Positions 53,977 to 61,634 of a stretch of DNA of 64,000 bases are shown one piece after another. The notes under the pieces are model-generated. The model saw only the letters and a program-made list of their open reading frames with translations, was not told the DNA's origin and ran no database searches. Position 1 is the stretch's first letter. The number at the start of each line of letters is the position of its first letter. The position numbers and the translations under genes are program-made. Source of the stretch: Humibacter albus DSM 18994 (lineage in GTDB: Bacteria > Actinomycetota > Actinomycetes > Actinomycetales > Microbacteriaceae); the NCBI RefSeq assembly GCF_000421825.1, contig NZ_ATXT01000011.1:186001-250000 (forward strand), given 5' to 3'.

Positions 53977-56900
53977 TCACGCGGCACGCGCGGCAGCAGC
54001 GACCGAGGAGATGGCGCGGCCGCCCACGGCCGGTCCGCCCAGGTCGAGCACACGGTCGGCGTCGCGCACCTGGGCGGCGTCGTGCGTGACGAGCACGGCC
54101 AGCCGGTCGCGCAGCGCCCAGCGCAGGTCGCTCATCAACGCGTCGGATGCCTGCTCGTCCAGGTGCGCCGTCGGCTCGTCGATGAGCACAACGTCTCCTC
54201 GCGTCAGCAAGGTGCGTGCGACGGCCACTCGCTGTCGCTGGCCGCCGGAGAGCCGGCTGCCCGCCGCGCCGATCCGGGTGTCGAGGCCGTGCGGAAGGGC
54301 GGCGACGAGCGGGGCGAGACCGACGCGCTCGAGCGCATCCAGGAGCTCGGCATCGTCGGGTGCGTCGTCGCGGCTGCGTGCGATGACCAGGTTCGCGCGC
54401 AGCGTGGAGTCGAAGAGGTGGCCCTCCTGCGGACACCAGGCGATGCGGGTGCGCAGCGACGCGGGCCTCAGCGTGCGGGCGTCGGCGCTCACGCCGCGGC
54501 CGCGCAACAGGTAGCTGCCCGAGGTGGGGTCGGCGAACCGCAGCAACAGGGCGAGGAGCGTCGACTTGCCCGATCCGCTCGGTCCGGTCACGGCCAGCCA
54601 TTGACCGCGCACGGCACGGGTGGAGGCAGCGGAGAAGGCGTCTCGAGCGGCACCGGGGTACCGGTACGAGACGGAGTCGAGTCGGATGCCGTCGACTGCG
54701 TCGAGCAGACCGCCGGCAGCCGGATCGTCGACGACGCCGGGCGTCAGCGCCGTCACAGCACGCACATCGGCCAGCACGCGAGCGAGGCCGGGTGCGCGCG
54801 ATGCCGAGGCGACGGCATCCAGGAGCGGTTCGACCAGACCGAGTGGCACGAGCGCGAGGATCGCCACGAGTTCGGGACGGAGCGCTCCTGATGCGACGGC
54901 GTCGGCAGAAAGCGGAAGCATCGCGATCGCTGCGGCGCAGCACGCGAACACGCTGAGAGCGGATGCCGCGCCCTCGGCGCGCGCAGCCGACTGTTCGGCC
55001 CGAGCCTCGGCGGCGCTGGCGTCCGCGAGGCGGTGGCGGAGTCTGCGGGCCGCGCGCGGGGTGAGGTCGTCGCGGGCGCCGAGCAGTTCGGTGAAGCCGC
55101 CGAGCACTGCCGCGCGAGCGGCTTCTCCGCGCCGGGCCGACGCGCGGGAGCCCGCGCAGGCGAGCAGACCTGCACCGAACAGGCCGACCGCGGCAAGCGC
55201 GACGATCACCGCCGCCGAGGGGCCGAAGACGACACCGAGCGTCACGCCGGCGCCGGCCAGCACGACGACAGCGGCGATCGGGGGTTGGACGACGCGCGGC
55301 ACGAGGTCGCGCACGCGGTCGGCGGCGCCGATCAGAGAGGAGAGCGCTGCGACGGGCGACAGCGCCGTGCGGCCGGCCGGGCCGGCGGCGGCGAGGGCTC
55401 CCCAGAGCCGCACGCGCAGAGCGGTCACGGCGCGGAACACGGCGTCGTGCGTGAGCAGCCGTTCGGCGTACCGCAGCACCGATCGGCCGATGCCGAAGAA
55501 GCGCACGCCGACGATCGCGACGAGCAGGTACATGATGGCGGGCTCCTGGCTGGCGCGCACGATGAGCCAGCCGGAGACGGCCGTGAGCGCGATCGCGAAG
55601 CAGGTGGACAGCACGCCGACCAGCACCGCGGCCAGCATGCGGAGACGAACGGGGCGCACGATCGCCCGCAGCTCGCTCAGCGATGCTGTGCCGCGCGCTC
55701 GCGGTGCGGCCGGGGCGTCGTGCGTCGGCGGAATGCTCGTCGCCGGGATGGCCGTGGACGGCACATCTCCGTCCACGAGGTCGGAGGAGGGCTGAACGTG
55801 ATCCACCGGCCGGGGCGGGGTCGCTCGCCCGTTCACGGTGACCACCACGTCGGCGAGCGGGCGCACCGCCGGATCGTGCGAGGCGACGACGACTGTGGTA
55901 CGGCCGCGGAGCGCCGACAACTCGTGGCGGACGAGGGCGGCCGAGTGCGAGTCGAGGTGCGCCGTCGGCTCGTCGAGCAGCACGAGCGCCGCACCGGCGT
56001 CGACCGCCGCGAGCACCCGCGCGAACGACAGCCGTCGCGCCTCGCCCGGGCTGAGCGACGCCGGGTCGTCGTCCGCGACAGCGAGCAGTCCGACACGGAC
56101 GAGCAGGGCATCCGCGGGCACGGCGTCACCGACCGCGTCGCTCCCGGCTTCCACGGCGACAGAGCAGTCGACTGCGTACAGGGCGACCTCGTCGCGCACG
56201 CGGCGGGCGGCGAAGTGCGGGTGCTGCGGCATCCAGGCGATCCGATCGGCCGGCGGAGCGGTGATGACACCGGTGCAGCTGGAGCCGTCGTCGAGGAGGG
56301 CGCCGCGACCGGCCAGCACCGCGAGCACGCTCGACTTGCCGCACCCGCTGTCTCCGGCCAGGAGAGTGACGCCGTTCTCGACGGCACGGAAGCCGAGGCC
56401 CGCGATCGTCGGCGTCGTGCGGCCGGCATGCCTGATCGTGAGATCCTGCACGGCCAGGGCACCGCGCGTCCGCACGAGCCCGGAGGGATTCGCGGTGCGC
56501 GCCAGTGTGGCACGCACCCGGCGCAGTGCTTCCCTGCCGGTGTCGGAGGCATGGAATGCCGCGCCGATGTCGCGCAGCGGTGCGTAACACTCCGGCGCGA
56601 GGATGAGCGCCACGAGCCCCGCCTGCAGCGTCAGCTCTCCGCTCAGCAGCCGCACACCGATGAACACCGCCACGACGGCCACGGAGATGGTGGCGATCAT
56701 GTCGAGAGCGAGAGAGGAGAGGAACGCCGTGCGCAGCGCGGTCATGCTGCGGCGACGGTGCTCGTCCGAGATGTCGGCCAGGGCAGCCGTCTGCTCCCGG
56801 TCTCGGGCGAGGCCCACGAGCACCGGCAGCCCGCGGGCGAGTTCGACGAGGTGGTCGGAGAGTCGGCCGAGGGCGTCCAGGGACGCGGCGACCCTGTCTC

Positions 56901-57444
56901 GGGTGTGCAGGCCGATGAGCGCCATGAACAACGGGACCAGCGGCACCGTGATGACGATGACGAGCGCGCTCACCCAGTCCGCCGCGAGGATGCGCGCGCC
57001 CACCAGCAGGGGAACTGTCGCCGCACCGACCAGAGACGGCAGGTACTGCGTGTAATAGGCGTCGAGCTCGTCGAGGCCCGATGCCGCCAGCGTGGCATCG
57101 GCACCGACGCCACCGTCCGTCCGCGACAGGTACGCCTTCGCGAGGCGAGAGCGCAGCCGGTTCTTCACGCCGGAGGACGCGGACTGCGAGGCGACGCGCA
57201 GTCCCCACACCGAAGCCGCTCTCAGCAGCGCGCCGGCGAGCCCCTCGAGCACCACGGGCAGCACCTCGCCGCGGGCGATGACGGTGACGACGCCGGTCGC
57301 GATCGCATCGGCCAGCAGCACGAGGCCGAGCGCCTTGAGCGCTCCGAGCGCGCCGAGGATCAGCAGGCGGCGACGGCCGACCTCGTCGATACCTTCCCAC
57401 GGTCCCCGTGACGTTCGCGGAGCGCGCTCGCCGGGTGACGTCAT
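53977..57444 (-). CDS. cydDC: Fused CydD-CydC ABC exporter for cytochrome bd assembly
   Basis: Protein of 1155 aa, a single chain with two transmembrane-plus-ABC halves. Half 1 (about 1-560) is CydD-like with LLAGDSGCGKSSVLA and LSPGEARRLSFARVL. Half 2 (about 600-1155) is CydC-like with VTGPSGSGKSTLLALLL and LSGGQRQRVAVARTL. CydDC exports thiols and is needed to assemble the bd oxidase. An acidic Pro/Thr linker joins the halves. Fused CydDC is known in other actinobacteria. ATG 57444 overlaps the cydB stop (ATGA). Confidence 0.93.
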   Translation of the reverse strand: MTSPGERAPRTSRGPWEGIDEVGRRRLLILGALGALKALGLVLLADAIATGVVTVIARGEVLPVVLEGLAGALLRAASVWGLRVASQSASSGVKNRLRSRLAKAYLSRTDGGVGADATLAASGLDELDAYYTQYLPSLVGAATVPLLVGARILAADWVSALVIVITVPLVPLFMALIGLHTRDRVAASLDALGRLSDHLVELARGLPVLVGLARDREQTAALADISDEHRRRSMTALRTAFLSSLALDMIATISVAVVAVFIGVRLLSGELTLQAGLVALILAPECYAPLRDIGAAFHASDTGREALRRVRATLARTANPSGLVRTRGALAVQDLTIRHAGRTTPTIAGLGFRAVENGVTLLAGDSGCGKSSVLAVLAGRGALLDDGSSCTGVITAPPADRIAWMPQHPHFAARRVRDEVALYAVDCSVAVEAGSDAVGDAVPADALLVRVGLLAVADDDPASLSPGEARRLSFARVLAAVDAGAALVLLDEPTAHLDSHSAALVRHELSALRGRTTVVVASHDPAVRPLADVVVTVNGRATPPRPVDHVQPSSDLVDGDVPSTAIPATSIPPTHDAPAAPRARGTASLSELRAIVRPVRLRMLAAVLVGVLSTCFAIALTAVSGWLIVRASQEPAIMYLLVAIVGVRFFGIGRSVLRYAERLLTHDAVFRAVTALRVRLWGALAAAGPAGRTALSPVAALSSLIGAADRVRDLVPRVVQPPIAAVVVLAGAGVTLGVVFGPSAAVIVALAAVGLFGAGLLACAGSRASARRGEAARAAVLGGFTELLGARDDLTPRAARRLRHRLADASAAEARAEQSAARAEGAASALSVFACCAAAIAMLPLSADAVASGALRPELVAILALVPLGLVEPLLDAVASASRAPGLARVLADVRAVTALTPGVVDDPAAGGLLDAVDGIRLDSVSYRYPGAARDAFSAASTRAVRGQWLAVTGPSGSGKSTLLALLLRFADPTSGSYLLRGRGVSADARTLRPASLRTRIAWCPQEGHLFDSTLRANLVIARSRDDAPDDAELLDALERVGLAPLVAALPHGLDTRIGAAGSRLSGGQRQRVAVARTLLTRGDVVLIDEPTAHLDEQASDALMSDLRWALRDRLAVLVTHDAAQVRDADRVLDLGGPAVGGRAISSVAAAARAA

Positions 57445-58472
57445 CGGGGCTTCACCGCCGCACGGACCGGCTTGACCTCGGGGATGCTCGTGCCCGCCAC
57501 CCGCTTGCGGAACACCCAGTAGGTCCAGCCCTGGTAGACCAGCACGAGCGGGACGCCGAAGGCGGCGACCACACTCATCACGCCCAGCGTGTACGCGGAG
57601 CTGGCGGCGTTCGACACGGTCAGGTCGTACGCGGCGCTCACCGTGGACGGCAGTACGTTCGGGAACACGTTCGCGAAGATCGACGCCGCTCCGAAGACGA
57701 GGAACGCGGCCATGCCCGCGAAAGCGCGTCCTTCGCTCCCCCGCCTGGCCCACCGCCAGGCGATCACGGCCGCCACGACGGCAGCAGCGACGAGGATCCA
57801 GGTGTACGCCTTGCCGTTCATGAACTGCACCGCAAGGACCCAGAGCGCGATCGGGATCAGCAGCGCCGGCATCCACCGCACGGCGAACCGGCGAGAGCGC
57901 ACCCGAACGTCGCCGTCGGTCTTCAGCGCGAGGAACACCGCCGCGTGCACGAGGCAGAAGCCCACTACGGCGAGACCGCCGAGCACGGCCCAGCCGTTCA
58001 GCCACCCGAACGGACCGCCGACGCCGTCGCCGTTCGAGTCGATCGGCAGTCCCGTGGTGGTCAGCACGAGCATGACGCCCACGCCGAAGGCCGAGACGAA
58101 CGACCCGAGTCCGAGGGCGAGATCCCATCCGTGCGTCCATCTAGTGGTGTGTCCCTTGCCGCGGTACTCGATGGCGACGGCACGGAAGATGAGGCCCAGC
58201 AGCACGAACACCAGCGGCACGTACAGCGTGGAGAAGAGCGATGCATACCAGAACGGGAATGCGGCGAACGTGGCGCCGCCGGCGGTGATCAGCCACACCT
58301 CGTTGCCGTCCCAGACCGGGCCGATCGAGTTGAGCATCACACGTCGGTCGTTGTCATTGCGGGCGGACAGCAGCATGTGCATGCCCACGCCGAGATCGAA
58401 GCCCTCGAGAAAGAGGTAGCCGATCCACAGCACGGCGATGATCACGAACCACAGTGTGGGGAGGAAGTCCAT
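57441..58472 (-). CDS. cydB: Cytochrome bd oxidase subunit II
   Basis: Protein of 343 aa with eight or nine helices. The N-terminal MDFLPTLWFVIIAVLWIGYLF and LEGFDLGVGM, then SIGPVWDGNEVWLITAGGATFAAFP, are the CydB signatures. It is the smaller core subunit of the high-affinity quinol oxidase in the membrane. It lies 29 nt after cydA with GAGAAGGG upstream and overlaps cydDC. Confidence 0.97.
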   Translation of the reverse strand: MDFLPTLWFVIIAVLWIGYLFLEGFDLGVGMHMLLSARNDNDRRVMLNSIGPVWDGNEVWLITAGGATFAAFPFWYASLFSTLYVPLVFVLLGLIFRAVAIEYRGKGHTTRWTHGWDLALGLGSFVSAFGVGVMLVLTTTGLPIDSNGDGVGGPFGWLNGWAVLGGLAVVGFCLVHAAVFLALKTDGDVRVRSRRFAVRWMPALLIPIALWVLAVQFMNGKAYTWILVAAAVVAAVIAWRWARRGSEGRAFAGMAAFLVFGAASIFANVFPNVLPSTVSAAYDLTVSNAASSAYTLGVMSVVAAFGVPLVLVYQGWTYWVFRKRVAGTSIPEVKPVRAAVKPR

Positions 58473-58501: not shown

Positions 58502-60088
58502 TCAGTAGGCGAACGCGAGCACGTCGTCGTCAGCGGGGGCGTCAGGATCCTTCGGCTTCTCGCCGAGCTCCGGTATGGCGGCCGCCACCCCGCCGCGGAT
58601 GTACTTCACGAGCAGTCGCACCTCGAACACCATCAGCACCGCGTAGACGATCGTGAACGAGACGAGCGAGAACGCGATCTCCCCGAATGTCACCCCCGGA
58701 GAGACGGCCGCAGCGGTGAACATGAACACTCCGTCGACGCCGCCGGGCGTCGGGTTGGGCGCGACCACGAACGGCTGGCGCCCCATCTCGGTGAAGATCC
58801 ACCCCGCCGAGTTCGCGGCGAACGGCGCGAAGATGCCCGATACGGCCAACCACATCAGCCAACGGGGCTGCGGCACCGTCCCCTTTCGGGTGAGCCAGAG
58901 CGCGACGACGGAGGCGAACGCGGCGAGTGCGCCGAACAGGATCATCAGCCGGAAGCCCCAGTAGGTCACGGCCATCACCGGAACATAGTTGATCTTCGAG
59001 CCCGCTCGGTCGCCGAGCTTCGCGTCGTCGGGAAGATGCGTTCCGTACTTCTGCTGGTAGCTGGGCACCAGTTCGTTCACACCCTTGACCGGCTCGTTGA
59101 AGTCGCCGTTGGCGAGGAAACCGAGCACGCCGGGAACCTCGATCACGTTGACCACGCCCGCGCAGTCCTTCGAGCCGATGTCGCCGAACGCCAGCAGCGA
59201 GAAGCTCGTGCCGGTGTGGCAGGCCGCTTCGGCCGACGCCATCTTCATCGGCTGCTGCACGAACATCAGGCGAGCCTGCGCGTCGCCGGTGATCGTGACG
59301 CCGGCGAACGCGATGATCGCCGTCACCGCGCCGATGCGCAGCGAGGTGAGCCAGACCCTGTGGTCGGACTTGTCACGCCCGGGCACGTCGGGCGCCTCGC
59401 CCACGATGACGCGCTGGTCGGGCCCGACCGTGTCGATGCCGTCGCGCCGACGCTGCCAGAGGTGATACCAGCCGACGCCGAGCAGCATGGCGCCGCCCAC
59501 CGCCAGCGCGCCGAAGATGGTGTGCGTGAACGCGGCCACCGCGGTGTTGTTGCCGAGGATGGCCCCGATGTCGTTCATCACGGGCCGACCGTGCACGAGC
59601 GTCACGCCGACAGGGTGTTGCATCCACGAGTTGGCCGCGATGATGAAGTAGGCCGAGACGACGGAGCCGGCGACGGCGAGCCAGAGGCACGCGAGATGGA
59701 TGCGCCGCGGCAGCTTGCCCCACCCGAAGATCCACAGGCCGAGGAACGTCGACTCGACGAAGAAGGCCAGCAGCGCCTCCATCGCCAGTGGGGCGCCGAA
59801 CACGTCGCCGACGAAACGGCTGTATTCGCTCCAGGCGAGGCCGAACTGGAACTCCTGCACGAGCCCGGTGGCCACGCCCATGATGAAGTTGATCAGGTAG
59901 ATCTTTCCCCAGAACTTCGTCATGCGGTAATAGCGGTCGTTGCCCGTGCGCATCCAGAGCGTCTGCATGAGAGCGACCAGCGGTCCCAGGCCGATCGTGA
60001 GGGGCACCATCCAGAAGTGGTAGACGGTGACGATGCCGAACTGCCAGCGTGCGATCAGAAGGGGATCCAGCTCGGTGGTGAAGTGCAC
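58502..60088 (-). CDS. cydA: Cytochrome bd oxidase subunit I
   Basis: Protein of 528 aa with about nine helices, the quinol-oxidising, heme b558/b595/d-binding subunit. RWQFGIVTVYHFWMVPLTIGL holds the first conserved His region. FWGKIYLINFIMGVATGLVQEFQFG and EALLAFFVESTFLGLWIFGW follow, and WIFTEMGRQPFVV is the family hallmark next to the Q-loop end. GTG 60088 has CGAGGAGAC upstream. Its promoter region carries three palindromic operators shared with the divergent BlaI-like gene. Confidence 0.97.
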   Translation of the reverse strand: MHFTTELDPLLIARWQFGIVTVYHFWMVPLTIGLGPLVALMQTLWMRTGNDRYYRMTKFWGKIYLINFIMGVATGLVQEFQFGLAWSEYSRFVGDVFGAPLAMEALLAFFVESTFLGLWIFGWGKLPRRIHLACLWLAVAGSVVSAYFIIAANSWMQHPVGVTLVHGRPVMNDIGAILGNNTAVAAFTHTIFGALAVGGAMLLGVGWYHLWQRRRDGIDTVGPDQRVIVGEAPDVPGRDKSDHRVWLTSLRIGAVTAIIAFAGVTITGDAQARLMFVQQPMKMASAEAACHTGTSFSLLAFGDIGSKDCAGVVNVIEVPGVLGFLANGDFNEPVKGVNELVPSYQQKYGTHLPDDAKLGDRAGSKINYVPVMAVTYWGFRLMILFGALAAFASVVALWLTRKGTVPQPRWLMWLAVSGIFAPFAANSAGWIFTEMGRQPFVVAPNPTPGGVDGVFMFTAAAVSPGVTFGEIAFSLVSFTIVYAVLMVFEVRLLVKYIRGGVAAAIPELGEKPKDPDAPADDDVLAFAY

Positions 60089-60107
60089 GTCTCCTCGATT
60101 CGATGTT

Positions 60108-60124
60108 TTCTACGTGCCGTAGAA
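60108..60124. promoter_or_regulatory. Palindromic operator 1, TTCTAC-GTGCC-GTAGAA
   Basis: Perfect 6-bp inverted repeat with a 5-bp spacer, 20 bp upstream of cydA. It matches the TAC/GTA arm type bound by BlaI/MecI/CopY repressors. It abuts operator 2 with no gap. Confidence 0.8.
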
Positions 60125-60141
60125 TTCTACGCGCTGTAGAA
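60125..60141. promoter_or_regulatory. Palindromic operator 2, TTCTAC-GCGCT-GTAGAA
   Basis: Identical arms and spacer length to operators 1 and 3. The junction with operator 1 creates TAGAAT on the minus strand (60124-60129), a plausible cydA -10 box about 36 nt before cydA. Confidence 0.8.
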
Positions 60142-60165
60142 GTTGTACCACCGTCGCCGGAACTT

Positions 60166-60182
60166 TTCTACACGCGGTAGAA
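60166..60182. promoter_or_regulatory. Palindromic operator 3, TTCTAC-ACGCG-GTAGAA, with embedded -10 box
   Basis: Third copy of the palindrome. Its right arm is part of TAGAAT at 60178-60183, which ends 6 nt before ATG 60190 of the BlaI-like gene. A bound repressor would cover the -10 of its own leaderless promoter, a simple autorepression layout. Confidence 0.8.
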
Positions 60183-60189
60183 TCGAGAC

Positions 60190-60564
60190 ATGGCAACTCG
60201 CACTGTGGTCAATCTCGGAGAGCTGGAACGCGCGATCATGGACGTCATCTGGGACGCCACCGCGCCGCTCGCCGCCACCGACCTGCGCGAGCAGTTGAAG
60301 GCATCCGCGCCCGGCGGCAAGGAGCCGGCGATCACCACGGTGATGACCGTGCTGTCCCGGCTGGAGGCCAAGGGCTTCGTCGTGCGGGACAGGGATGCCA
60401 GGCCGCACCTCTACAGCGCAACCATGACCCGCGAAGACCACGTCGCCGAGCTGATGCACGAGGTGCTCGGCTCCGCATCCGATCGGGATGCCGTGCTCGC
60501 CCGTTTCGTCGGCCAGGTCACGCCGCACGAAGCGGAGCGCCTGCGCAGGCTGCTGGACGCGTAA
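60190..60564 (+). CDS. BlaI/MecI/CopY-family transcriptional repressor
   Basis: Protein of 124 aa with the winged-helix fold of the family. Diagnostic pieces are LGELERAIMDVIWD near residue 10, the recognition region EPAITTVMTVLSRLEAKGFVVR near 50, and RPHLYSATMTREDHVAELM. The C-terminal helices form the dimer. Classical members repress beta-lactamase or copper genes and are cut by BlaR1. Here the neighbours are a BlaR1-like protease gene 5 nt downstream and the divergent cyd operon, so cytochrome bd is the likely target. ATG 60190 follows TAGAAT by 6 nt. Confidence 0.92.
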   Translation: MATRTVVNLGELERAIMDVIWDATAPLAATDLREQLKASAPGGKEPAITTVMTVLSRLEAKGFVVRDRDARPHLYSATMTREDHVAELMHEVLGSASDRDAVLARFVGQVTPHEAERLRRLLDA

Positions 60565-60569
60565 CGGCC

Positions 60570-61634
60570 GTGCTCACCGTCGCTGTCGCGCTGGCGCTCT
60601 TCGCATTCGCCCTCGCCTGGCCCGTGCCCGTGGCGCTGGCGCGGGCGGCCTGGCCGCGCCGCATGCCTGGCGCCGCGCTCGTGCTGTGGCAGGCGATCGC
60701 GCTCGCAGGCGGCCTGTCGATGATCGGCTCCCTGCTCGTGTTCGGGCTCATCCCGTTCGGCGCCGACCTGCCCGACGCCGCCGGCGCGTTCGGCTCCGAC
60801 CTTTTCGCCGGCCGCCTCCCGCACGACGCGAACTTCTTCCAGATGTTCGCGCTCGCCGGCGCAGTGCTGCTCGGCGTGCACCTGCTGCTCAACCTCGTGC
60901 GCACGGCGTGGCGCGCGGAGCGACAGCGCCGCCATCATGTGCAGTTGCTGCACCTGCTCAGCGACCCGATGCCGGACTCCCCCGGCACGCGCGTGATCGA
61001 CCATGCAACCCCGATCGCGTACTGCCTGCCGGGCGCGCCGCGCGCCGTCACCGTGCTCTCGGCCGGCCTGCTCGAGCTGCTGAGCGACGAGGAGCTCGCC
61101 GCCGTGGTGGCGCACGAACGCGCGCACGTGACACAGCACCACAACATCCTGCTGGTCGCGTTCAGCGCCTGGCGGAGCGCGCTTCCGTGGTTCCCGATCG
61201 CGACCCGCGCGCACGAGGCCGTCGGGCTCCTCATCGAGTTGCTCGCCGACGATCAGGCGCGTCGTACCGTCTCCGGCCGCGACCTCTCCCGGGCTGTCGC
61301 GCGCGTGGCGCTGGCCGCCGCGCCGCAGACGGATACCGGCACAGGTGTCGGTTCGCGCGGTTCGGGTGCTCGAGCAGGCGTCAAACCCGTCGGTGCTGCC
61401 GTCGGGGCCGGCGCCTCTGCTACGGCGCGGGGCGCGGTGTCGTCTCCGCGCTTCGGCGATCCCGGCTTCGGCGCGGCCCCAGCGGCACCCACCGAGTGGG
61501 CGGATGCCCGGATCGCCCGGCTGACGCAGCTCCCGATCGCGCACGTGCCGGCGTTGCGCCTGTCGGTGCTCGCAGCGTCGATCGCCCTCGTCGCCCTGCC
61601 GACGCTGATGCTGCTCAGTCCCGCCGTGCGCTGA
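60570..61634 (+). CDS. BlaR1-like M56 family membrane metalloprotease
   Basis: Protein of 354 aa with three N-terminal helices (about 1-22, 36-62, 92-112) and a last helix at 330-350. The cytoplasmic protease domain has the zinc motif HERAH (H182, E183, H186) and the third ligand region ELLADD (E223). In BlaR1 and MecR1 this protease removes the repressor after a signal. The extracellular penicillin-sensing domain that follows the last helix in BlaR1 is missing, so the signal is unknown. GTG 60570 lies 5 nt after the repressor stop. The Gly/Ala/Ser-rich stretch 252-305 is low complexity. Confidence 0.88.
   Translation: MLTVAVALALFAFALAWPVPVALARAAWPRRMPGAALVLWQAIALAGGLSMIGSLLVFGLIPFGADLPDAAGAFGSDLFAGRLPHDANFFQMFALAGAVLLGVHLLLNLVRTAWRAERQRRHHVQLLHLLSDPMPDSPGTRVIDHATPIAYCLPGAPRAVTVLSAGLLELLSDEELAAVVAHERAHVTQHHNILLVAFSAWRSALPWFPIATRAHEAVGLLIELLADDQARRTVSGRDLSRAVARVALAAAPQTDTGTGVGSRGSGARAGVKPVGAAVGAGASATARGAVSSPRFGDPGFGAAPAAPTEWADARIARLTQLPIAHVPALRLSVLAASIALVALPTLMLLSPAVR

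Follow-up and report, generated by a model that had tools for sequence, protein, structure and literature searches.

Why should a gene pair known as a textbook antibiotic-resistance switch stand back to back with the genes of a respiratory oxidase? The question is raised by a locus of Humibacter albus DSM 18994, found in a 64-kb stretch of contig NZ_ATXT01000011.1 (hereafter the window; 68.5% G+C) of its 3.69-Mb genome, which is available in 20 contigs. A blaI-type repressor gene (60190..60564, + strand; 124 aa, winged helix, identified by PF03965) is followed directly by a membrane metalloprotease gene (60570..61634, + strand; 354 aa). This pair is divergent from cydA (58502..60088, − strand, GTG start), which encodes subunit I of cytochrome bd oxidase (clear family match), in the order cydDC < cydB < cydA < [101 bp] > blaI > protease gene. 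Both the divergent placement of the pair and the 101-bp length of the gap, as given in a preliminary description of the locus, were confirmed by Pfam matches and coordinates. The analysis indicates that BlaI probably acts as a repressor of respiratory genes and of its own operon, is relieved by the protease, and very probably controls the cyd operon.

The gap contains three exact TTCTAC-N5-GTAGAA palindromes (positions 60108, 60125 and 60166; no strand assigned) with identical arms and spacers of 5 bp in each case, precisely as the preliminary description had reported. Candidate operator 1, TTCTACGTGCCGTAGAA (60108..60124), is separated by 19 bp from the cydA start codon and directly adjoined by operator 2, TTCTACGCGCTGTAGAA (60125..60141); operator 3, TTCTACACGCGGTAGAA (60166..60182), is separated by 7 bp from the blaI ATG. 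No further exact copy occurs anywhere in the genome (0.02 expected from base composition alone), in which the reversed pattern is absent. When up to two mismatches were allowed, the window contained 3 matches versus a mean of 0.19 in 100 shuffles, none of which reached 3. Chance or a general surplus of palindromes was rejected as an explanation, since a scrambled version of the motif gave 0 matches in 16 genomes compared with 57 for the real one.

A search of actinobacterial genomes for blaI and a protease gene beside cyd with the same palindrome, suggested in the preliminary description, revealed that the arrangement is widespread. Among the best 80 of 575 confirmed BlaI relatives, chosen by BlaI similarity alone in a genome-contig scan (the named set), cydA is divergent and a protease gene is located behind blaI at all 80 loci, and at least one exact palindrome (range 1–3) is present at 77. 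The genera represented include Humibacter, Leifsonia, Cryobacterium, Agromyces, Microbacterium, Salinibacterium, Arthrobacter, Pseudarthrobacter, Kocuria and Agrococcus; among the matches listed, from which records very close to the window may be missing, the nearest BlaI of a named genome belongs to Humibacter sp. RRB41, with 80% identity. The three loci with no exact site contain two one-mismatch sites (L219), three copies with a 6-bp spacer (L214), or imperfect or 6-bp-spacer copies (L203). In 56 of the 77 named loci, no more than 25 bp separate cydA from the nearest exact site. In H. albus the right arm of operator 3 plus the next base reads TAGAAT, by eye a possible −10 box of blaI; as a rule, this double use of the arm was rejected, T being the following base in just 8 of 77 named relatives.

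The distribution of the operator was also examined in 59 near-relative genomes, each judged by its best BlaI. In 19 of them blaI is divergent from cydA, and an operator is present at 18 of these 19 blaI-linked cydA genes: 15 are of the exact TTC type and three (G010, G042 and G049) are TAC variants, whereas G041 has neither. Where the gene order is shared, the operators are thus nearly always present too (18 of 19 linked near genomes and 77 of 80 named loci); their absence from such relatives had been named as evidence that would speak against a BlaI–cyd switch. Among cydA loci away from blaI, 1 of 36 has an operator (55 cydA loci in all, second copies included); this lone exception, G052, has sites at cydA and a BlaI gene approximately 4.5 kb from that cydA. 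One stray exact palindrome each was detected in G009 and G017, which have no cydA. In G010, a member of the same family as H. albus, the blaI-cyd locus (L015) is kept, yet BlaI and cydA are only 44% and 41% identical, respectively, and the operators are of the TAC type; the entire module looks like one swapped with a distant actinobacterium.

A class-level survey revealed a BlaI match in 128 of 196 genomes. The locus of the best match was fetched for 110 of these 128, and cydA is divergent in 45 and a protease gene is located behind blaI in 95 of the 110. Divergent cases account for 9/9 loci in family f1 (that of H. albus, this genome included), 16/16 in f36, 8/10 in f41, 9/16 in f34 and 1/1 in each of f6, f43 and f52, and are absent from the fetched loci of f2, f18, f22, f31, f32, f33, f35, f45 and f48. 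Six of the nine f34 cases are less sure because of their long gap (576–826 bp) and a cydA match that is cut by the locus end, with approximately 28% identity where printed. The operators of f36 and f41 are mostly of the TAC type.

The pair itself and the bd oxidase operon had been proposed as the sole targets, a view that was rejected as too narrow in the light of putative sites before atpB in this genome and at further respiratory genes in its relatives. One-mismatch palindromes occur at six places in the H. albus genome. Two of them (TTCTAC-N5-GTCGAA, 22 bp apart; 0.08 copies of this form expected per genome) precede its own atpB, three are located within predicted reading frames and one is beside an unremarkable gene. 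Putative BlaI-type operators are thus present at both cyd (exact) and atp (one mismatch), as in the mycobacterial-type regulon, and the TTCGAC half-site at atpB is the counterpart of a TACGAC half-site in families f22, f33 and f36. This atpB (G000:C18:201138-202007, outside the window, locus L120) is 60–75% identical to those of 24 family genomes but only 49–53% identical to those of its four congeners. The atp operon of H. albus thus appears as if exchanged, and it is this copy of atpB that bears the two BlaI-type sites.

In four genomes (G005, G011, G040 and G058, the last two of one genus), 21 extra exact sites were identified at 19 places. On the respiratory side these are hmp (three genomes), hemQ (two), ctaC (one) and the region between narK and a molybdopterin gene (one). 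The others are yceI (two), a gene for a Pyridox_ox_2 flavin protein (two), a gene for a small membrane protein (two) and pta (one). The yceI, hemQ, Pyridox_ox_2 and small membrane protein sites each occur in both G040 and G058. Five places (L101, L103, L106, L107 and L108) are unclear cases. The site of L101 (G005) was rejected as a yceI promoter, because it is placed 3′ of yceI and 5′ of a gene with no Pfam or NCBIfam match; that of L103 is 3′ of a radical-SAM gene.

Sixteen named genomes, hand-picked from the 80, were scanned in the same respect. Of the 57 exact sites that they contain, 32 are at cyd. The other 25 are located at hemQ (4), a gene for a small membrane protein (4), a DUF1254 protein gene (4, each in a Leifsonia genome), hmp (3), yceI and/or a His-phosphatase gene (3), and at Pyridox_ox_2, qcrC, ctaD (L348, 5′ side), pyrophosphatase|tilS (L347; ppa) and the small membrane protein gene of L361 (1 each), with two unclear cases. 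The two scans together give 44 extra places, and clear respiratory, heme, NO or nitrate genes account for 16 of these (hmp 6, hemQ 6, qcrC, ctaC, ctaD and narK). HemQ, QcrC, CtaC and CtaD pass their NCBIfam cut-offs, NarK and the flavohemoprotein score below theirs, and the remaining names are based on Pfam or similarity. The His-phosphatase gene presumably leads a cytochrome c biogenesis operon.

If the targets are respiratory, the question arises of what a BlaR1-like protease senses without a sensor domain. The predicted protein has hydrophobic segments at residues 1–27, 34–67, 87–113 and 321–354, the second and third joined by a short loop. A zinc site, H182-E183-H186 (HEXXH, 182–186), and an invariant E223 are located between segments 3 and 4, and residues 264–302 are disordered. 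Pfam analysis detected no penicillin-binding or other extra domain, and the chain ends with the fourth segment. The protein matches Peptidase_M48 with 39.3 bits (cut-off 20.3) and Peptidase_M56 with 23.1 bits, under the cut-off of 31. In a Foldseek search with the structure model (mean pLDDT 86), the best folds were S. aureus BlaR1 and Ste24p, both with low TM scores. The top match, BlaR1, has a probability of 1.00, but E 0.01 and TM 0.34, and nothing was found at E ≤ 0.001. A profile search against solved sequences found Ste24p and HtpX weakly and did not find BlaR1. The earlier term “BlaR1-like M56” is hence appropriate as a statement of likeness (a HEXXH membrane metalloprotease), but not as a family assignment. 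The HEXXH motif is present in the protease of 78 of the 80 named loci; in two of the 80 (L197 and L206) the protease reading frame is broken (171 and 166 aa), by sequencing error or decay.

These features bear on the strongest competing explanation, namely that the pair is a sensor of β-lactams or wall stress, as in staphylococci, and that cyd is induced since wall damage requires a different oxidase. In its favor, PMC5473688 describes a mycobacterial BlaR that also has no sensor domain, and a joint rise of blaR-blaI and cydAB under a β-lactam plus inhibitor. We nevertheless regard this explanation as unlikely: the protease of H. albus has no penicillin-binding domain, no β-lactamase gene is present in the neighborhoods of the five sites of this genome, to which the search was limited, and no obvious wall gene occurs among the nameable genes at the sites of relatives, several others being unnamed. 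Nor did these comparisons lend any support to wall stress, which the preliminary description had put forward as a possible signal. Direct β-lactam sensing is disfavored by the missing sensor domain, and a respiratory signal is favored by the list of targets. Our guess is that the signal is a respiratory or membrane-energetic state; it would have to enter via the membrane segments, short loops or a partner protein. The recurrence of this wiring in many actinobacteria likewise makes the pair appear to be a switch for respiration and not a sensor of antibiotics.

The respiratory side of BlaI is already in print for mycobacteria. According to PMC5473688, which cites Sala 2009, mycobacterial BlaI binds the promoters of cytochrome bd and ATP synthase; PMC12565901 reports that BlaI binds and represses the atp operon, and PMC5874750 names BlaI as an atp regulator. 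The statement of the preliminary description that no clear description of such a circuit was known therefore needs to be narrowed: mycobacterial BlaI has been published at atp, and at cyd by citation (PMC5473688, PMC12565901). In the open-licence literature, as judged from listed titles and the openings of abstracts, no account was found of a divergent blaI-cydA pair, of the TTC operator or of the wider regulon, an absence that is unproven, as most subscription papers were outside the scope of the search. The abstract of Sala 2009 reportedly lists atp, not cydAB, and the binding of BlaI at the cyd promoter is thus second-hand. There is a real chance that the respiratory role is the primary one.

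It could also be argued that a different regulator, responding for instance to redox state or oxygen, reads the palindromes, blaI being one of its targets. Actinobacterial bd oxidase genes are regulated by Rex, HrrSA and CRP/DevR in response to redox, heme or hypoxia; these belong to regulator families unrelated to BlaI and involve no protease step. The pairing of BlaI with the operator is a prediction from sequence comparison, but the operator at cydA tracks a neighboring BlaI, and its arms covary largely with the recognition helix of BlaI. The arms are TTC[T/G]AC in 105, TAC[T/G]AC in 46 and neither in 57 of the 208 loci compared, among which a few genomes appear twice. The recognition helix reads A-Y/H-TT...D/Q/N-RL in 46/46 loci of the TAC group. 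In the TTC group, the Y/H position is occupied by V, T, A, L, I, P or S in 102/105 (the remaining three have Y...E) and the D/Q/N position by S or T in 100/105. Operator arms and recognition helix thus appear largely to change together, in counts that rest on few independent switches.

A further argument comes from family f22, which the AtpI-like protein and the Y/Q helix common with the solved structure 2g9w suggest to be Mycobacteriaceae. The best BlaI is beside cydA in none of its 16 genomes; a TAC-type operator precedes blaI in 13 of them. TACTAC-N5-GTMGTA nevertheless occurs no more than 50 bp away from the estimated start of cydA in all 16 and 120–265 bp upstream of atpI-atp in 11. A different reader of the palindromes therefore seems very improbable, and the comparisons strongly support BlaI as the putative reader of the operator and cyd as its core target.

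Equally remote is direct sensing of a metal or ligand by BlaI, as copper is sensed by CopY, with some other task for the protease: the sole NCBIfam match of the repressor is indeed CopY_TcrY, though with 32.1 bits versus a cut-off of 121.95, but it has no cysteine and hence no CopY-like Cys-X-Cys tail as outlined in PMC7253601, the protease gene is located behind blaI in all 80 named loci, and a Phe aligned with the one near the MecI cleavage site is invariant in 18 sequences.

The repressor itself is well defined. It matches Penicillinase_R (PF03965) with 82.2 bits (cut-off 22.6) over its whole length and is the only PF03965 protein found in the genome. A profile search matched 2g9w, MecI and BlaI; the best solved relative is 2g9w, which we take to be BlaI/Rv1846c of Mycobacterium tuberculosis. 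The Phe mentioned above is F106; the cleavage site of the family in S. aureus is presumably N101-F102.

As the most probable mechanism of the BlaI–protease switch, the following may be proposed. BlaI, presumably as a dimer, would bind TTCTAC-N5-GTAGAA (relaxed half-site TTC[T/G]AC) beside the starts of cydA and blaI and repress both the bd oxidase operon and its own; the two weaker sites before atpB are probably bound too. The protease would reside in the membrane with its zinc site toward the cytoplasm. When activated by a disturbed respiratory chain or membrane state, it would cut BlaI at the conserved Phe in its C-terminal part (R105|F106 by alignment). The cut repressor would then leave the DNA, and cyd and the blaI-protease switch would be induced. 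Dimer binding, repression rather than activation, the orientation and action of the protease, cleavage and relief are all inferred from the family. Since one set of operators serves both blaI and the protease gene that follows it, the switch should amplify its own output once on, and newly made BlaI should reset it once off. The classical bla/mec system is likewise self-boosting and self-resetting.

How closely this resembles known systems can be judged from three comparisons. The nearest is mycobacterial BlaI-BlaR (Rv1846c-Rv1845c), which supplies the closest solved repressor (2g9w) and shares the TAC-N5-GTA geometry; mycobacteria-like f22 has sites at both cydA and atp. The differences are that f22 blaI is away from cydA, here divergent from it, and that the arms are TAC there and TTC here. 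PMC5473688 adds, as a likeness, a BlaR that is also devoid of a sensor domain and, as a difference, the β-lactamase gene blaC as a target, which has no equivalent beside the sites here. The staphylococcal systems BlaI/BlaR1 and MecI/MecR1 have in common with this locus a PF03965 repressor with an adjacent gene for a HEXXH membrane protease; S. aureus BlaR1 is also the top, though weak, fold match of the protease here. The latter, unlike theirs, has no β-lactam sensor domain, the operator is TAC-N5-GTA (TTCTAC-N5-GTAGAA) in place of TACA-N2-TGTA, and respiratory genes are the targets, with no β-lactamase or PBP2a gene beside the five sites. The protease gene comes after the repressor gene here; the staphylococcal gene order differs from this. 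For the family at large, the classical operator is given as TACA/TGTA in PMC7253601. CopY/TcrY copper repressors belong to the same wide family, but the H. albus repressor has no cysteines, its operator is different and no copper export genes are located beside it.

Several observations weigh against an autoregulated respiratory switch of this kind. According to PMC5473688, several atp genes fell under β-lactam while blaI-blaR and cydAB rose, so that simple relief of BlaI at atp fits poorly. In the atp check (39 of 58 genomes with atpB looked at), atp sites were found in just 5 of 19 blaI-linked and in 0 of 20 unlinked genomes, and two of the five are approximately 900 bp upstream. The M56 score of the protease is below the gathering cut-off, its modeled fold resembles BlaR1 weakly (E and TM as above), and, in the alignment, forms of about 250 aa seem to have no fourth membrane segment. 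Three loci (G041, L203 and L214) have no exact site although the gene order is kept. Family f34 breaks the simple covariation, since its helix reads Y...E although its operators belong to the TTC type and often deviate from the exact palindrome (e.g. TTCTAC-N5-GTAGGA). As for the extra sites, the function of the genes at 28 of the 44 places is unclear or not respiratory. In the 16 named genomes, moreover, the reversed pattern gave 10 matches versus 25 extra real sites, so that chance may account for some single ones. The f22 total is only moderately higher than that of the reversed pattern (82 vs 52 on both strands of 16 genomes), and it is therefore the position of the sites, not their number, that carries weight.

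A broader interpretation is quite possible, although it is put forward tentatively. The pair may be an ancient sensor of the state of the respiratory chain, shared across the actinobacterial class, with a core target in cydABDC, to which atp, bc1/aa3, heme-synthesis and NO-detoxification genes were added by lineage; the protease, having no outer domain, would read an in-membrane signal, for instance the redox state of the quinol pool or the membrane potential. Mycobacterial control of β-lactamase and the β-lactam response would then be side branches, not the origin. A textbook antibiotic-resistance switch becomes a candidate respiration switch in many actinobacteria, and with the operator code named, other genomes can be scanned. 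Operators of one repressor at both cyd and atp would also offer a testable reason for the coupling of β-lactams with the response of respiration genes in mycobacteria.

The remaining genes of the cyd operon are cydB, encoding subunit II of the bd oxidase (57441..58472, − strand; clear family match), and cydDC (about 53977..57444, − strand; 1155 aa from the likeliest start), a fused ABC transporter gene for bd assembly. The order cydA-cydB-cydDC given earlier is present, cydDC being a single fused gene named by eye from its translation.

Two types of small membrane protein gene recur behind the operator. The first (115–121 aa) has the operator in front at L361:1378-1725, L367:1546-1908, L382, L384, L410 and L420; it occurs in Arthrobacter gandavensis, f36 and f22, and the L361 protein has no Pfam match. 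Distant relatives of the latter (32–36%) with an operator in front were found in three genomes of f36 and two of f22, and the protein is a possible partner of the switch. The second is preceded by an exact operator in six genomes (L343, L353, L360, L362, L110 and L118), four of which are named Arthrobacter or Pseudarthrobacter; no Pfam match was obtained for L343 and L353. Finally, in four Leifsonia genomes (L337, L350, L351 and L352) an exact operator precedes a DUF1254/DUF1214 gene (Pfam match for L350).

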